Below are positions 53,699 to 62,123 of a DNA stretch of 64,000 nucleotides, piece by piece. The translations under genes and the position numbers were made by a program. This stretch comes from Pelosinus sp. UFO1 (GTDB lineage Bacteria; Bacillota; Negativicutes; DSM-13327): assembly GCF_000725345.1 (NCBI RefSeq), contig NZ_CP008852.1, forward strand, positions 496,001 to 560,000. Direction: 5' to 3'. Below the pieces are notes generated by a model. It made no database searches. It saw only the letters and a list, made by a program, of their open reading frames with translations, and had not been told where the DNA came from. The number at the start of each line of letters is the position of its first letter. Positions within the stretch are counted from its first letter, which is position 1.

Positions 53699-54613
53699 GT
53701 GAATTTGATTTGGATACAAAAACAACGATCAAGATTATTATATATGTTGGCAGCTTTTGTTTGTGTGGGATCTCTTCTTTTTTTTGCGGGTAAAACCCCT
53801 AAGAACCAACCAATAGAACAAAAGGCAGAGACAGTTCAATCGGAGGAAAAAGCCAATACAGTAGCTCAGCCAGAAAGCGTTCCTAAAAATAAAATCCACA
53901 CTGTTAAAGAAGGTGAGACCTTAGGTGTGATTGCCGAGCAGTATAATATTGATGTTGATACTTTGCTGGGAGCAAATGAAAATTTAGGAACTGATATTCA
54001 TCCAGGAGATCAATTAGTAATTTTACCGCAAAAAGGTATACTCTATCGTGCAGACATGGGGGATACCCTATGGAGGATTGCGAGTACGTTTCAAGTAGAT
54101 GTAGCTGCTATTATGGCGGCTAATGATAAAAAGGATGAAGATTTAGCGATTGGCGAGAATCTATTCATTCCTGGTGGTAAAAAAATTAAAGAGCCGGAAC
54201 GGTTATTGGCAAGAGCTGAGTCACCGGTCTCACGTGGCGGTGTTAGTAATCGTTTTATTTGGCCGACAGTAGGAGACGTAAGTTCTGGTTTTGGCTACCG
54301 GTGGGGGAGACATCATGACGGTATTGATCTTGCGAATGATATTGGAACAACCGTTCGCGCTGCTCGCTCGGGACGTGTAACCTATAGCGGTTGGTCGAGT
54401 GGATATGGTCGATTGGTTATTATAGAGCACGATCAAGGATATACGACTTACTATGGGCATCTTAATGAATCTCTTGTAGAAAATGGAGAGTACGTAAAAG
54501 CAGGTCAAAGTATTGCTTACATGGGGAACACAGGGGAATCTACAGGCCCACATCTTCATTTTGAAGTGCGGAAAAATGGTACACCGATTAATCCTTATAG
54601 TGTATTACCATGA
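53699..54613 (+). CDS. LysM-LysM-M23 peptidoglycan endopeptidase
   Basis: 304 residues. An N-terminal membrane anchor (residues 10-28) is followed by an acidic linker. Two LysM domains are at about 62-108 and 115-160. A C-terminal M23 (LytM) zinc peptidase domain holds the zinc ligands HHDGIDL and HLHFE. It should bind and cut peptide cross-bridges in the cell wall. Relatives include sporulation and division proteins, but nothing here decides. GTG start after GGAGG. Confidence 0.92.
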   Translation: MNLIWIQKQRSRLLYMLAAFVCVGSLLFFAGKTPKNQPIEQKAETVQSEEKANTVAQPESVPKNKIHTVKEGETLGVIAEQYNIDVDTLLGANENLGTDIHPGDQLVILPQKGILYRADMGDTLWRIASTFQVDVAAIMAANDKKDEDLAIGENLFIPGGKKIKEPERLLARAESPVSRGGVSNRFIWPTVGDVSSGFGYRWGRHHDGIDLANDIGTTVRAARSGRVTYSGWSSGYGRLVIIEHDQGYTTYYGHLNESLVENGEYVKAGQSIAYMGNTGESTGPHLHFEVRKNGTPINPYSVLP

Positions 54614-54912: not shown

Positions 54913-55707
54913 TTATTTCAGCTGTTCTTTTAGTTCTTTTATTTTTAGATCCTTTGTCGTTATGGTTTTTTCATATTCTTTTTTTATGTCGCTAAGGTTT
55001 TTATTCAGTTGATTGATAAAGGATGCCATTTCATCAGAGCTGCCAGCGATACGATTAAATAATAAAAGATTAGAAGCCAGTATTTGTGGGATTTCTTTGT
55101 GAGAATATCGCAATTGATGGTCGATTTCACCATAGCCTTCTTCAAAGATTGTTCGTACTTGAATTTCTGCAATTACTTTTTGGTTAGTAGGGAAAAATTC
55201 TATCAAGTAGTGAACGGAACGATAGCCGGATTTTCTTGAATTGATTTTAATCTTTAAGTCTTCAAAACGCTGGGTGTCATCACCTTCTCGAACATTTGCG
55301 GTAATTTCCATAACTTTCCAAGTCTTTGTAATGAAATTATGGATATCATCCCAATCTTCTTTGAAAATATGAATCGCCCTAATTCCGATTAAATCAGTTA
55401 TTTCTTCCTTGTAATTTTCAACTGTAAACTGAAAATCTTTGCCATAAGATTCTTTTCTAGTTGGTGTTTTGCGAATGATTTTCTCGATAAGCCGCTCTGA
55501 TTCTTTGACCCTAGATTTTACAAAATGTATTTTAGGGTGTGTTCTTAGTGTACTAGCGATAAATTCAGCCTGGGTTTGGTACACATATTTATAGTTATTA
55601 AAATCAAGAAAAATATCTGTTATCGTCTCCCAGTTTATTTCACTCTTGATAATATCATCTTCAGAAATATGATGAATTGTTAGAAAAGATTCTTTTATAA
55701 GGCTCAT
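54913..55707 (-). CDS. RelA/SpoT-domain (p)ppGpp synthetase
   Basis: 264 residues from the ATG at 55707, which has GAGGGG ahead; the frame runs 28 codons further without support. The synthetase core has RVKESERLIEKI, DLIGIRAIH, SRKSGYRSVHYLIE and EIQVRTIFEEGYGEIDH. There is no HD hydrolase, TGS or ACT domain, so it resembles a small alarmone synthetase. A C-terminal coiled coil of about 35 residues follows (DIKKEYEKTITTKDLK). It may be a stress synthetase or a toxin-type relative; no antitoxin gene is obvious next door. Confidence 0.85.
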   Translation of the reverse strand: MSLIKESFLTIHHISEDDIIKSEINWETITDIFLDFNNYKYVYQTQAEFIASTLRTHPKIHFVKSRVKESERLIEKIIRKTPTRKESYGKDFQFTVENYKEEITDLIGIRAIHIFKEDWDDIHNFITKTWKVMEITANVREGDDTQRFEDLKIKINSRKSGYRSVHYLIEFFPTNQKVIAEIQVRTIFEEGYGEIDHQLRYSHKEIPQILASNLLLFNRIAGSSDEMASFINQLNKNLSDIKKEYEKTITTKDLKIKELKEQLK

Positions 55708-55885
55708 ATAATATTCCCCTCTGCATGAATAAGCAATATAGATAATGTAATTATAACGAAGAATTCTATAATTAACAATTAATCTTCTCAAGATGCTTAA
55801 GAAAATATACGTGAATTGGTGCTATGGTTGAAATAGAATATTTTATAGCGTTTTTGAGAAATGCTAATAGAATGAGAAGGACCAA

Positions 55886-57073
55886 GTGAACGAAATGTAC
55901 TATTTGGGGGATCTTATGAATCTAGATTTAAACCTTTTACTGCCGTATCTTATTTTTGTCTTTCAGGGGCTCATAGCTCCTCTAGGTAGTGTTATGATCA
56001 TAGAGATTGCTAAGAAATATTCTGTAGATACTTCAATGATTGGTTATGTTTTTGCTCTTAGCATCATAGGGGGCGGGATAGCTGCCTTAGCAAGTGGTTT
56101 TTTGCTAGAGACAATTGGAAAACGCAGACTTATTTTTGTTGGGATTTTGTGTGGAGGATTGGCTGTTGTCTCAATTACGGTTTCTAATCATTTAACGATG
56201 TTTGGGATGGGGGTATTTCTTACAGGTTTAAGCAATTGGCTATTGACGGCTGTTGGTAACGAGATCGTTGTTGAAAATTACCAGGGAAAAAAACGCTCCT
56301 CACAACTTAATTTATTAAATTTCTTTTATAGTGTAGGTGCTCTGGTAACTCCCGCTTTGGCTGGTTCTATGCTAGCGAGGGGCATTCAATGGGAAATGAT
56401 TTTTTTAACGCCCTTTACGTTACTAGGAGCATTGGCTCTATTTGCTTATTTTTTTAAGTCTAACCTATCCAAAGTTCCTGCAAGCTCTTTGGAAAAAGTG
56501 GCGCAATCGAACTCTAGTGAAAGTTGGAACGCGAATATGTATCGGACTAGCATCGCTTTGGGAGTTTACTGTATGTTGGAACTTAGTTATACCTATTGGA
56601 TTGTTGTACATCTTAGGGAGAACTTGTCAGTAGATATTGTGGAGGCAAGTTTGGTTCTGACTATTTTTTATATATGCCAGGCGATAGGTAGATTTATAAC
56701 AGGGATTGTAATAAAATACATATCTCTTTACCGCTATATCATTTCCTGCGCCTTTATTGGTCTTGCTGCTGCTAGTTTCATTATTATTAGCAAAAGCTAC
56801 GTAGTGATACTTTGCCTAACAATCTTATTCGGGTTAGCAGTCGCTGGTTTGTATCCATCAATCCTATCCTATGGAACCTTACAAGCTACGCATTCACCTC
56901 GTGCTGTGACTTTTTTTTTGACATCTGGTCTTGCTGGTTCTGTTGTGGGAATGTTGGTAACAAGTTTTTTAAAACAACAAGTTGGCTCTTGGGCATGTAT
57001 TGTTGTCACGGCTATATCGGCGGCATTGGTTATCCTATTGATAGGAAGTACTATGGAAAAGGGGGAAGGGTAA
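55886..57073 (+). CDS. MFS transporter
   Basis: 395 residues with about 12 hydrophobic segments and the MFS loop GFLLETIGKRR between TM2 and TM3. The substrate is unknown. Two starts are possible: GTG 55886 after AGAAGG, or ATG 55916 after GGGGG. It precedes the sigma-F promoter by about 20 bases and stands apart from that unit. Confidence 0.85.
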   Translation: MNEMYYLGDLMNLDLNLLLPYLIFVFQGLIAPLGSVMIIEIAKKYSVDTSMIGYVFALSIIGGGIAALASGFLLETIGKRRLIFVGILCGGLAVVSITVSNHLTMFGMGVFLTGLSNWLLTAVGNEIVVENYQGKKRSSQLNLLNFFYSVGALVTPALAGSMLARGIQWEMIFLTPFTLLGALALFAYFFKSNLSKVPASSLEKVAQSNSSESWNANMYRTSIALGVYCMLELSYTYWIVVHLRENLSVDIVEASLVLTIFYICQAIGRFITGIVIKYISLYRYIISCAFIGLAAASFIIISKSYVVILCLTILFGLAVAGLYPSILSYGTLQATHSPRAVTFFLTSGLAGSVVGMLVTSFLKQQVGSWACIVVTAISAALVILLIGSTMEKGEG

Positions 57074-57089: not shown

Positions 57090-57120
57090 TGTATAAAGAC
57101 TACCCATATCGGTAATAATA
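57090..57120 (+). promoter_or_regulatory. Sigma-F promoter candidate
   Basis: -35 TGTATA, 15 bases, -10 GGTAATAATA. Every specified position of the Bacillus sigma-F pattern (wGywTA / GGnnAnAnTR) is met. It stands 33 bases before the PrsW-like gene. fin, next downstream, is a sigma-F gene in Bacillus, so the context agrees. Confidence 0.65.
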
Positions 57121-57152
57121 GACTCATTGTAGTTGTATATAAAGAGGTAATC

Positions 57153-57536
57153 ATGGCTTATGTGATTGGCTGTTTAATGGCTGGTTTGAGTTTCTTATTA
57201 AATAAAGTGTTAATACAGTATATTGGCATTAAGGCTGTCATTAGTTATAGCCCTTTGGTAGAAGAAATCACAAAGACACTTTGTTCTTACTATTTGGCGG
57301 CTGATATTTTAGTTACCCATGTTGTTTTTGGTATTTTGGAAGCTGCTTATGATTGGTATTGTGACCAGTTGGGGCGGGGGTTATCTGCAGCTTTATTTAG
57401 TGTAGTAGGTCACACCGTTTTTGGAGCATCTACACTTCTAATTTTACATATGAGTGGCAGCGTGGTCTTAGCAATCCTTGTAGCCAGTTGCATACATTTA
57501 GTTTGGAATGTAACAATGATTCGGTTATCTTCCTAA
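57153..57536 (+). CDS. Miniature PrsW-like intramembrane protease
   Basis: 127 residues, three or four membrane segments. All three PrsW motifs appear in order: EExxK (E37-E38..K41), FxxxE (F59..E63) and HxxxB (H115..N119, with H87 as another candidate). PrsW of Bacillus, about 220 residues, is a membrane glutamic protease that cleaves the anti-sigma factor RsiW. This copy is far shorter, so it may be a minimal core. A sigma-F promoter upstream and fin downstream suggest forespore expression. The family call is from motifs only; no substrate is known. Confidence 0.6.
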   Translation: MAYVIGCLMAGLSFLLNKVLIQYIGIKAVISYSPLVEEITKTLCSYYLAADILVTHVVFGILEAAYDWYCDQLGRGLSAALFSVVGHTVFGASTLLILHMSGSVVLAILVASCIHLVWNVTMIRLSS

Positions 57537-57588
57537 CTAGTTATAACTATAAAGTTTTTACGTATTATTTTGGAGGCGAAAATGAGTC

Positions 57589-57831
57589 ATGAAAATATAT
57601 TATAGTTGTGAACATTGTGGTGATGCTATCGATACAATAGAGGTAGATGAAGTAGATGAAGTTAAGTTCGGTTTTGATTGCTTGACTGCTGAAGAACGCC
57701 AAGATATAATAAAAGTTGATTTAATGAAGAATACCATGTATGTTCATTCTTTATGTGATAAGTGTATAGAGTCCATGGGGTTTTTTGAGGAAGGGCTGCC
57801 TCAAAAGCAGCAAAAAGAGTTTTTACATTAA
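57589..57831 (+). CDS. fin: Anti-sigma-F factor Fin-like (DUF2757/YabK) protein
   Basis: 80 residues. Two Cys pairs C7/C10 and C56/C59 form a zinc ribbon, with the family motif YYSCEHCG at the start and GFDCLTAEERQDII in the middle. In Bacillus subtilis fin (yabK) sits just before mfd, and the same holds here. Fin binds sigma-F and core polymerase and switches the forespore from sigma-F to sigma-G. GGAGG is 12 bases before this ATG, somewhat long; an overlapping 7-codon frame starts at 57582. Confidence 0.8.
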   Translation: MKIYYSCEHCGDAIDTIEVDEVDEVKFGFDCLTAEERQDIIKVDLMKNTMYVHSLCDKCIESMGFFEEGLPQKQQKEFLH

Positions 57832-58110: not shown

Positions 58111-61100
58111 ATGAATAATTTATTTGAAATTATGAAAAATGACCCAGGGATAAAGCGGGTACTTGCCGCTTATCAAATGACTGCTAGCCAAAGCCAAATT
58201 TATGGCGTAACAGGTGCGCAAAAAAGCGCATTACTGGCTGCAGCCTATCAATTAAGTCCAAGGCCTACTGTGATTATTACTGGCAATCAGGAGTCGGTGG
58301 AGCAATTGCGCGCTGATTTTGCCACATTACTTCCTGGTACCCTTGTTCTTGAATTGCCTGCTTTGGATATTATTACCTTTACTGCCGCTGCTAAAGGGGT
58401 AGAGTTAGCAGCCCGCCGTATGGATGTGTTAGGACGCATGATTCGGGGGGAAAATCTGATTGTTTTAGCGACGGCTGAGGCAACAATCCAAAAAGTGTTA
58501 CCACGAGAACATTTTGAGAATAATCGTATTACAATAACCAGCGGCACAGAAATTATCCGTGAGGAATTATTAGAATCCTTGGTTCGATTTGGTTATGAGC
58601 GAGTTGAACAAGTAGACGGACTTGGTCAATTTAGTGCCAGAGGCGGAATTATAGATATATTTCCTATTAGCAATAAAGTGCCAATTCGTTTGGAGTTATT
58701 CGGCGACGAAGTAGATTCTCTGCGTGAATTTGATGCTGGAACACAACGGTCTATGCATCCTGTGGTGCAAGTTGATATTTTGCCTCTTTCTGAAGTAGAG
58801 CAAACAGGAACGCCTACCGTGTTTTTATCGTATTTGCCTCCTAGTGCCACCGTAGTATTTGATGAGGCTGCTCGCGTTCGGGAGCAGATGAGTAAGTTGG
58901 TTAAGGAAAATCCTGAACTGAAGAAAAGTACGTTTACTTGGTCAGATATAGTAGCCGTTGCGAAACATTATAATGTAATGTACCTATCTTTAATGTTACA
59001 AAAGATTCCTTACACCCAACCTGATGAAATTGTTAGTATTACGGCTAAAAGTATTGTGCCATTTCAACGTCAGATGGATATGTTACTCGCCGAACTGAAA
59101 AGTTGGCAGGAACATAAATCATATACCATTATTTTCATGTCAAATAGTGAGAAAGCCTTATCACTTCAGCACAGTTTGGTAGAGGACGGCATTCATGCCG
59201 TTTTTTCTGAAACAATTCCTACCCTAGTGGAAGGCTCTGTATTAGTGACCGTAGGCTTATTAACGGCAGGCTTTGAGCTGCCACAGGCTCATATGGCCGT
59301 CATTACAGAAAAAGATATTATGGGCAGGCAAAAGAAAAAGCCTCGTCCAAGAGTGGGTAAAGGGCAGCAAATTGCCTACTTCCGTGATATTAAGATTGGC
59401 GACTATGTTGTACATGTCAATCATGGTATTGGAAAGTATGTGGGAGTAGAGACCCTTGTTGTTGGCAACGTTCATAAAGACTACTTACACATCCGCTATG
59501 CTGGAGAAGACAAACTTTACGTTCCGACAGATCAAGTAAATCTATTACAAAAGTACATTGGTTCAGAAGGGGATGCACCTCGTTTAAATAAAATGGGGGG
59601 CAGCGAATGGCTAAAAGCCAAGGGAAAAGCAGAAAAAGCCGTGGCGGACATGGCAAAAGAATTGCTAGAGATCTATGCCAAACGGGAGATCGTATCTGGC
59701 TACGCTTTTGAGGCGGATACTCCTTGGCAAAAAGAATTTGAAGATGCTTTCCCTTTTGAAGAAACGCCAGATCAATTAAGTGCTATTACTGAAATAAAAG
59801 CAGATATGCAGCAGGCGAAGCCCATGGATCGACTATTATGTGGGGATGTGGGTTTTGGTAAAACAGAGGTTGCTGTTCGCGCAGCCTTTAAAGCTGTTAT
59901 GGGTGGTAAGCAAGTGGCGATTTTAGTACCGACTACAGTGCTGGCTCAGCAGCACTATCAGACGATAAGTGCTCGGTTTGCCGGTTTTGGGCCAGTGGTA
60001 GATGTGATTAGTCGTTTTCGTAGTGCAAAAGAGCAACGTGCAACTATTGAGGCCTTAAGGAACGGCCAAGTAGATGTATTAATTGGGACACACCGTATAT
60101 TGCAATCGGATGTGAATTTTAAAGATATTGGTCTGCTCATTGTCGATGAAGAACAGCGTTTTGGGGTCAAGCAAAAAGAAAAGTTAAAACAGTGGAGCGC
60201 AGGCATTGACGTACTTACCTTAAGCGCTACACCAATCCCACGGACTCTACATATGTCATTAGTAGGGGCGAGGGATATGAGTATTATTGAAACTCCTCCC
60301 GAAGAACGTTTCCCCGTACAAAGTTATGTAGTGGAATATAACGAAGAAGTTATGCGTGATGCAATTAAACGGGAACTAAAAAGAGGTGGGCAGGTATATT
60401 TTGTCTATAATAGAGTGCAAACCATTGATAAAATGCATCGTAGGTTGTCAGAAATGCTGCCTGATGCCAAAATTAGGGTAGCTCATGGGCAAATGCCAGA
60501 AGAAATATTAGAACAAGCTATGCTTGATTTTTATGAGGGTAATGATGATGTATTGCTGTGCACTAGTATCATTGAGAATGGTCTTGATGTACCAAATGCC
60601 AATACCATTATTGTTTATGATGCAGATCGATTTGGTTTATCACAACTTTATCAGATGCGGGGGAGAGTCGGACGTTCTCACCGTATGGCTTTTGCCTATT
60701 TTACCTATCGACAGGATAAAGTTTTGACAGAAGTAGCTGAAAAACGTTTGCAAGCAATTAAGGAGTTTGCAGAATTAGGTGCAGGTTTTAAAATTGCTAT
60801 GCGTGATTTAGAAATTAGGGGTGCTGGAAATCTCTTGGGAGCGCAGCAGCATGGACATATTGTTAGTGTAGGTTTTGAAATGTATTGTCGTTTATTAGAT
60901 GAAGCGGTTCAACAGTTAAAAACTGGACAAAAATTCGAGGCACCGATTGAACCAGTGCTAGAATTTAATATAGATGCTTATATAAGTGGCGACTATATTA
61001 GTGATGCCATGCATAAAATTGAAATATACCAACGTATTGCTGCCAGTAGGAATGACCAACATATTTCAGATCTTGTTGATGAATTGGTAGATCGATTTGG

Positions 61101-61380
61101 TGAACCACCCACCTGTGTGGTTAACTTACTAGAAGTTGTTAGAATTAAAAATTTAGCGAGAGCTATTGGCATTCGGTCAGTTATTCAGCAAAGTAATTAT
61201 ATTGAAGTCACATTTATAGATCGGCCTCATGTAGAACCGGCTCAAATCATGGCTCTAAAAGATGCGTTTCCCAATCGGGTCATGATGTATCCTGAAGGGA
61301 TTCGTCTAAAGACGGCTCAAATTACGAATGAGGCATTAATTGGCTGGTTGGTGAAAGTATTTAAAACATTAGTTCCTTGA
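58111..61380 (+). CDS. mfd: Transcription-repair coupling factor Mfd
   Basis: 1089 residues. The order is UvrB-like N-terminal module, CarD-like RNA polymerase interaction domain (GDYVVHVNHGIGKYVG), then a RecG-like translocase with Walker A GDVGFGKT (578-585) and DEEQRFG box. QMRGRVGRS and the C-terminal D7 domain end it. Mfd removes stalled RNA polymerase and recruits UvrA. Order fin-mfd-spoVT-spoVB matches Bacillus. Confidence 0.97.
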   Translation: MNNLFEIMKNDPGIKRVLAAYQMTASQSQIYGVTGAQKSALLAAAYQLSPRPTVIITGNQESVEQLRADFATLLPGTLVLELPALDIITFTAAAKGVELAARRMDVLGRMIRGENLIVLATAEATIQKVLPREHFENNRITITSGTEIIREELLESLVRFGYERVEQVDGLGQFSARGGIIDIFPISNKVPIRLELFGDEVDSLREFDAGTQRSMHPVVQVDILPLSEVEQTGTPTVFLSYLPPSATVVFDEAARVREQMSKLVKENPELKKSTFTWSDIVAVAKHYNVMYLSLMLQKIPYTQPDEIVSITAKSIVPFQRQMDMLLAELKSWQEHKSYTIIFMSNSEKALSLQHSLVEDGIHAVFSETIPTLVEGSVLVTVGLLTAGFELPQAHMAVITEKDIMGRQKKKPRPRVGKGQQIAYFRDIKIGDYVVHVNHGIGKYVGVETLVVGNVHKDYLHIRYAGEDKLYVPTDQVNLLQKYIGSEGDAPRLNKMGGSEWLKAKGKAEKAVADMAKELLEIYAKREIVSGYAFEADTPWQKEFEDAFPFEETPDQLSAITEIKADMQQAKPMDRLLCGDVGFGKTEVAVRAAFKAVMGGKQVAILVPTTVLAQQHYQTISARFAGFGPVVDVISRFRSAKEQRATIEALRNGQVDVLIGTHRILQSDVNFKDIGLLIVDEEQRFGVKQKEKLKQWSAGIDVLTLSATPIPRTLHMSLVGARDMSIIETPPEERFPVQSYVVEYNEEVMRDAIKRELKRGGQVYFVYNRVQTIDKMHRRLSEMLPDAKIRVAHGQMPEEILEQAMLDFYEGNDDVLLCTSIIENGLDVPNANTIIVYDADRFGLSQLYQMRGRVGRSHRMAFAYFTYRQDKVLTEVAEKRLQAIKEFAELGAGFKIAMRDLEIRGAGNLLGAQQHGHIVSVGFEMYCRLLDEAVQQLKTGQKFEAPIEPVLEFNIDAYISGDYISDAMHKIEIYQRIAASRNDQHISDLVDELVDRFGEPPTCVVNLLEVVRIKNLARAIGIRSVIQQSNYIEVTFIDRPHVEPAQIMALKDAFPNRVMMYPEGIRLKTAQITNEALIGWLVKVFKTLVP

Positions 61381-61553: not shown

Positions 61554-62123
61554 GTGAAAGCGACTGGAATTGTAAGAAGAATTGATGATTTAGGTAGAGT
61601 AGTAATACCAAAAGAAATTAGGCGAACACTTAGAATTCGTGAAGGTGATCCACTGGAAATATATGTTGACCGAGAAGGGGAAGTTATTCTTAAGAAATAT
61701 TCTCCAGTAAGTGAGCTAGGTGATTTCGCAAAGGAATATGCTGATTCCTTGTATGAAGCTGTAGGTCATATTGTCTTAATAGCAGACAGAGATACTATAG
61801 TCGCTGTCGCAGGCTCATCGAAGAAAGAGTTCTTGAATAAGCCATTGGGTTCTGTATTGGAAAAAGTAATGGAAGATCGTAAGGCAATCGTATTGAACAA
61901 TCTTACTGACGGTAAAGGTTGTAAAGGCTGTATTATTGACGCAGGTGATGACGATGAAGTATGTAAATTTACATCAGAAGTCATTGCCCCAATTATTGTT
62001 GAAGGTACGTCCATTGGTGCAGTCGTTCTTTGCTCCAAACAGCAGGGAGTGCAGATGAGTGAAATGGAAGTCAAGCTAGCAGAAACTGCTGCAGGATTCC
62101 TTGCAAAACAAATGGCAACATAA
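61554..62123 (+). CDS. spoVT: Stage V sporulation regulator SpoVT
   Basis: 189 residues. Residues 1-50 form an AbrB-type DNA-binding domain (KATGIVRRIDDLGRVVIPKEIRR, read in two parts). The C-terminal GAF-like domain covers residues 60-185. It is a forespore transcription factor that tunes sigma-G genes and spore properties. GTG start after AGGGGGG. Terminator follows. Confidence 0.95.
   Translation: MKATGIVRRIDDLGRVVIPKEIRRTLRIREGDPLEIYVDREGEVILKKYSPVSELGDFAKEYADSLYEAVGHIVLIADRDTIVAVAGSSKKEFLNKPLGSVLEKVMEDRKAIVLNNLTDGKGCKGCIIDAGDDDEVCKFTSEVIAPIIVEGTSIGAVVLCSKQQGVQMSEMEVKLAETAAGFLAKQMAT

Follow-up and report, generated by a model that had tools for sequence, protein, structure and literature searches.

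A minimal PrsW-like putative intramembrane protease encoded ahead of fin in Pelosinus sp. UFO1 and kept beside mfd in sporulating relatives

What is the small membrane protein encoded directly ahead of the gene for the anti-sigma-F factor Fin in Pelosinus sp. UFO1, and does it take part in spore development? The question concerns a stretch of 64,000 nucleotides (the window) from the 5.1-Mb genome of this organism, in which an initial annotation had proposed a sigma-F-driven unit made of a miniature PrsW-like protease gene, here called mini-PrsW, and fin. The features of the locus are as follows.

57091..57120, plus strand: sigma-F-type promoter, GTATA (-35), N15, GGTAATAATA (-10); the only perfect match in the window
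57153..57536, plus strand: mini-PrsW, an open reading frame of 127 aa for a five-helix PrsW/CPBP/APH-1-like putative intramembrane protease
57589..57831, plus strand: fin, anti-sigma-F factor Fin (Pfam PF10955, E-value 4.5e-17, 62.5 bits, cut-off 23.7)
58111..61380, plus strand: mfd, a DNA-repair gene that regularly follows mini-PrsW throughout the phylum
61554-62123: spoVT, after mfd
53699-54613: LysM-M23 peptidase gene, upstream of the mini-PrsW/fin unit
54913-57073: RelA/SpoT-domain gene (minus strand) and MFS transporter gene, with the M23 gene on one side and the mini-PrsW unit on the other

The open reading frame, the gene order, the promoter match and the identity of fin were confirmed as first proposed. 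The gap between the mini-PrsW stop codon and fin is 52 bases. The promoter element begins 62 bases ahead of the mini-PrsW ATG, with 33 bases from its end to the start of the frame. Further upstream, the MFS gene adjoins the unit in only 3 of 28 loci and looks like a local insertion. The LysM-M23 gene may encode an enzyme of the spore envelope or one like SpoIIQ, and relatives of this gene lie directly before fin in three protease-less Negativicutes loci (L072, L073, and L075).

A search of Pfam and NCBIfam with mini-PrsW gave no model over its cut-off. The PrsW model (PF13367) reached an E-value of 0.095 and 12.7 bits with the window protein, below the gathering cut-off of 23.5. It is the Pfam model touched by most family members (10 of 49, best E-value 4.5e-4); the CPBP model PF02517 was touched by only 3 of the 49. 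When the PrsW profile was run on this genome, the mini-PrsW gene was the only one found, as two weak collinear pieces. The protein contains the motifs E37ExxK41, F59GxxE63, H87xxxG91, and H115xxxN119. Three of them, EExxK, FxxxE, and HxxxN, had been noticed from the start and proved to be conserved in the homologues, while H87xxxG91 is an addition to that list. E37, E38, K41, G60, E63, H87, G91, H115, and N119 occur without exception in the 137 non-redundant sequences aligned, F59 is kept in 136 of them (one F59I), and no further column outside the four motifs is fully conserved. This count covers 137 of 145 non-redundant sequences, the remaining 8 having been left out over start extraction and not for divergence. 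The homologues are overall as little as 23–30% identical to the window protein, and invariance of the catalytic residues at this level argues for an active enzyme. Recoding of an in-frame TGA was considered for one family (G232, G267, G372, and G395) and rejected, as the codon is a true stop near the C-terminus.

The structure of mini-PrsW was predicted with AlphaFold2 from 21 sequences (the window protein and those of named loci), which yielded a model with a pLDDT of 90.8 and a pTM of 0.82. The model contains five helices (residues 2-23, 32-47, 52-70, 76-101, and 104-126), and EExxK, FxxxE, the conserved His, and HxxxN lie in successive helices, as expected of PrsW. The predicted fold can be described as a four-helix PrsW/CPBP catalytic core preceded by one N-terminal helix. 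The distribution of positive charge, in loops 1 and 3 and at the C-terminus, is consistent with an N-out/C-in orientation. A Foldseek search of the PDB with the model gave no significant match, and a profile search of the sequences of solved structures found nothing at E-values up to 1. The Foldseek candidates, 493 chains, were re-aligned with VIA-align, from which alone the APH-1 match comes. The first hit was the APH-1A chain of gamma-secretase (Z 11.2, rmsd 2.6 Å) and the second APH-1B (Z 10.5), each aligned over 125 of the 127 residues. Third came a chain of the human BOS complex, chain C (Z 8.2), which we take to be TMEM147, an APH-1-like protein; the next unrelated entry scored 7.6. Rce1 chains are absent among the matches listed, which has no bearing on kinship with Rce1. 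APH-1 is a member of the PrsW/CAAX superfamily (Pei et al. 2011, as cited in PMC4602095). Helical bundles score high by chance, and a Z below 13 is supportive for a helical protein and not conclusive. The value of 11.2 thus supports a shared PrsW/CPBP/APH-1 membrane fold without proving it, and the case becomes convincing when the motifs are added. The structural expectation of the initial annotation was thereby borne out in part: the best solved matches belong to a relative of PrsW, and the Foldseek result fell short of significance.

PrsW of B. subtilis, the protease of the anti-sigma factor RsiW, offers the closest comparison. The published model of it is a core of four helices that carries EExxK, a His in helix 5, and HxxxD and resembles a type II CAAX protease (PMC4602095). 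Mini-PrsW resembles it in EExxK, FxxxE, the conserved His of the next helix, a final HxxxN/D motif, and the four-helix catalytic core. It differs in its length of 127 aa and its five helices, whereas eight helices and four motifs are the rule among PrsW proteins (PMC3482391). It also has HxxxN in place of HxxxD, stays below the Pfam cut-off, is fixed between pth and fin/mfd, and in Negativicutes has a forespore promoter. With the CPBP or type II CAAX (Rce1-like) proteases, it has the EE motif and the final HxxxN in common, but EExxK replaces their EExxxR, and His87 is an extra residue. CPBP proteases carry FxxxH, where mini-PrsW has FxxxE. APH-1, although the best solved match over the whole protein, is a scaffold subunit found in eukaryotes, roughly 240 residues long, whereas mini-PrsW keeps the full catalytic set. 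By the curated cut-off, mini-PrsW falls outside PF13367, and its motifs are not those of an Rce1-like protein. It would work in the manner of the PrsW/CPBP/APH-1 superfamily and is very likely descended from it, forming a new minimal family, widespread and unannotated. The designation as a PrsW-like protease is well supported by the invariant motifs and the predicted fold nearest to APH-1, though not by membership of the Pfam family.

The promoter was examined with the pattern GTATA-N14-16-GGNRANAATA, and loci were scored out of 13 positions. The mini-PrsW promoter is the sole perfect match within the window (0.05 expected by chance). The whole genome gave 6 matches against 5 in a reversed control, so the pattern alone is not specific, and this count was rejected as proof of a promoter; most of the other matches lie within genes or have no clear gene behind them. 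We accept the promoter as real because it is conserved upstream of mini-PrsW across Negativicutes: a score of at least 11 of 13 was found in 30 of 35 non-redundant divergent loci (0.79 expected), and a perfect element in 18 of the 35 (0.01 expected). This conservation settled the sigma-F assignment made from the single perfect match. In the same genome, a similar element, GAATA-N15-GGCAATAATG, is located at -60 of sigG, and GTATA-N15-GGGTAATATA at -52 of gpr; the B. subtilis counterpart of sigG is transcribed by sigma-F (PMC5942855). Among the other classes, the element was enriched upstream of mini-PrsW when fin was present (8 of 26 loci, 0.85 expected) and not clearly enriched when fin was absent (6 of 76, 2.6 expected). 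In L072 and L073, two Negativicutes loci without the protease, a similar element stands before fin. Because it is clearly enriched only with fin and also precedes fin where the protease is missing, the promoter appears to belong to the fin unit, with the protease as its presumptive first gene wherever both occur.

To place the locus in a wider context, its distribution was followed at three depths. A protein search found the mini-PrsW gene in 28 of 60 related genomes, and in 27 of 27 Negativicutes loci with readable sequence, fin adjoins it, followed by mfd where the stretch reaches, in the same order. A profile built from this 27-locus set (A1) detected it in 49 of 150 Negativicutes genomes, namely in 49 of the 55 with a strong match to the sporulation sigma factor gene sigF and in 0 of the 95 others sampled. 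Five sporulating Negativicutes have fin without the protease gene, and the gene ahead of fin is then glpX or one for an M23 peptidase; in the sixth sigF-bearing non-carrier (G098, 72% complete), no match to fin was found either. A wider profile (A3), applied to 299 genomes from the whole phylum, detected mini-PrsW in 112, almost always in a short frame. The sporulation marker spoIIR is present in 245 of the 299 and in 109 of the 112 carriers (Fisher p 6e-9, shared ancestry not corrected for), which supports a general link with sporulation. About 45% of the sampled spoIIR genomes (109 of 245) carry the gene. Since about half of the sporulators do without it, including the five Negativicutes, mini-PrsW is not universally required. 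A plasmid search gave no match and hence no sign of mobility.

The survey of fin-mfd loci revealed the synteny pth - mini-PrsW - (fin) - mfd. Of 111 loci read across the phylum, three end too soon for mfd, and it is the next gene on the same strand in 104 of the 108 testable ones; in 84 of the 111, pth precedes mini-PrsW in the same orientation. An iterated profile located Fin in the interval from the protease to mfd in 27 of 104 loci outside Negativicutes and not in the other 77, about three quarters. The fin-less loci have median gaps of 52 bases on the pth side and 97.5 bases on the mfd side. As fin occurs in so few of these loci, pth and mfd are the constant neighbours of mini-PrsW, whereas fin is an optional one. 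Several loci deviate from this order. In one family, a double GerM-domain lipoprotein-like frame lies between mini-PrsW and mfd (L119, 3913-4821, and L159); it matches Pfam Germane with 197.6 bits in two stretches and is a possible partner or substrate of mini-PrsW. In one family with genomes of 2.4-2.5 Mb (L117, L157, and L188), a shortened Fin of about 50 residues occupies this place and keeps both CxxC pairs and the C-terminal His. In L125, L174, L206, and L153, mfd is not found behind mini-PrsW and the neighbours are aroE-like, reductase-like, or others; L153 still has a Fin-like frame. These four exceptions could help to identify partners of the protease.

Taken together, the small membrane protein is probably an overlooked spore-development protease. 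This reading draws directly on sequence, residue invariance, predicted fold, synteny, promoter conservation, and co-occurrence with sporulation genes. We consider it reasonably likely that mini-PrsW acts as an intramembrane protease of the forespore membrane on a membrane substrate of spore development. It would be a minimal, catalytically competent glutamic-type enzyme, inserted N-out/C-in, in which E37/E38, E63, H87, and H115/N119 form a single intramembrane active site. In Negativicutes, its gene would open a forespore transcription unit that is driven by sigma-F and also holds fin, an arrangement well supported by the conserved promoter, order, and spacing, from which co-transcription may be expected. 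A role in the spore is proposed there because the gene is restricted to sporulators and has a forespore promoter. What counts against a forespore role is that outside Negativicutes, the gene mostly lies clustered with pth and mfd where fin is missing, and the sigma-F promoter signal there is weak or absent. The substrate would be a membrane protein of the developing spore. Fin would not qualify, being soluble and often absent, and it is unlikely to be an essential partner, since about three quarters of the loci outside Negativicutes keep the protease without it. In Negativicutes, the two have a locus and presumably a transcript in common, but Fin (YabK) is an unrelated protein that occurs independently of mini-PrsW in much of the phylum. 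A broader form, in which an ancient, phylum-wide forespore protease, uncatalogued owing to its small size, cuts a membrane regulator and times the forespore programme with fin as an optional transcript partner, is rather doubtful; the steps timed, by an equally tentative estimate, could be the end of sigma-F, the start of sigma-G, or engulfment signalling.

The initial annotation had gone further and suggested a part in forespore sigma control. Spelled out, this means direct control of sigma factors: the protease would cut an anti-sigma factor or regulator bound to the membrane and, with Fin, end sigma-F activity or start that of sigma-G. The proposal is partly a special case of the forespore protease. 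PrsW itself cleaves an anti-sigma factor (PMC4602095), mechanisms other than Fin, yet to be identified, are said to contribute to sigma-F shut-off (PMC5942855), and the promoter and order common to mini-PrsW and fin in Negativicutes, with the enrichment in other fin-bearing lineages, fit it. The tie to fin is weakened because 77 of 104 loci are fin-less and the promoter is not clearly enriched there; Fin is a soluble zinc-ribbon protein, and a membrane anti-sigma gene was not seen beside the mini-PrsW locus. We regard direct sigma control as unlikely. Of similarly low probability is a housekeeping membrane protease that serves translation or quality control and is expressed together with pth and mfd. 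The tight packing with these genes in fin-less loci speaks for it, as does the sigma-F-type promoter before fin alone in L072 and L073. The added suppositions that the sporulation link is a by-product of lineage retention and that the promoter serves fin seem just as improbable. Against this reading, none of the 95 sampled Negativicutes that lack sigF has mini-PrsW, though pth and mfd are housekeeping genes; spoIIR accompanies nearly all carriers, and in Negativicutes the promoter precedes the protease and not fin directly. A pseudo-protease or scaffold like APH-1 in gamma-secretase, suggested by the nearest solved folds, is very improbable, as the predicted catalytic residues, EExxK included, are kept in 137 sequences without exception, as in enzymes.

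The forespore protease thus remains the reading we prefer. A literature search that reached few subscription journals found no description of the mini-PrsW gene or its neighbourhood, and none of the Pfam or NCBIfam families covers it despite its frequency among spoIIR genomes. Model work on sporulation rests on Bacillus subtilis, in which fin sits in the slot of mini-PrsW. Even in that species, sigma-F shut-off is described as poorly understood (PMC5942855). The gene offers a target that is precise down to the catalytic residues in Sporomusa, Pelosinus, and thermophilic sporeformers. Few proteins with a full PrsW-type active site may be smaller than mini-PrsW, a property that would be of use in structural studies.
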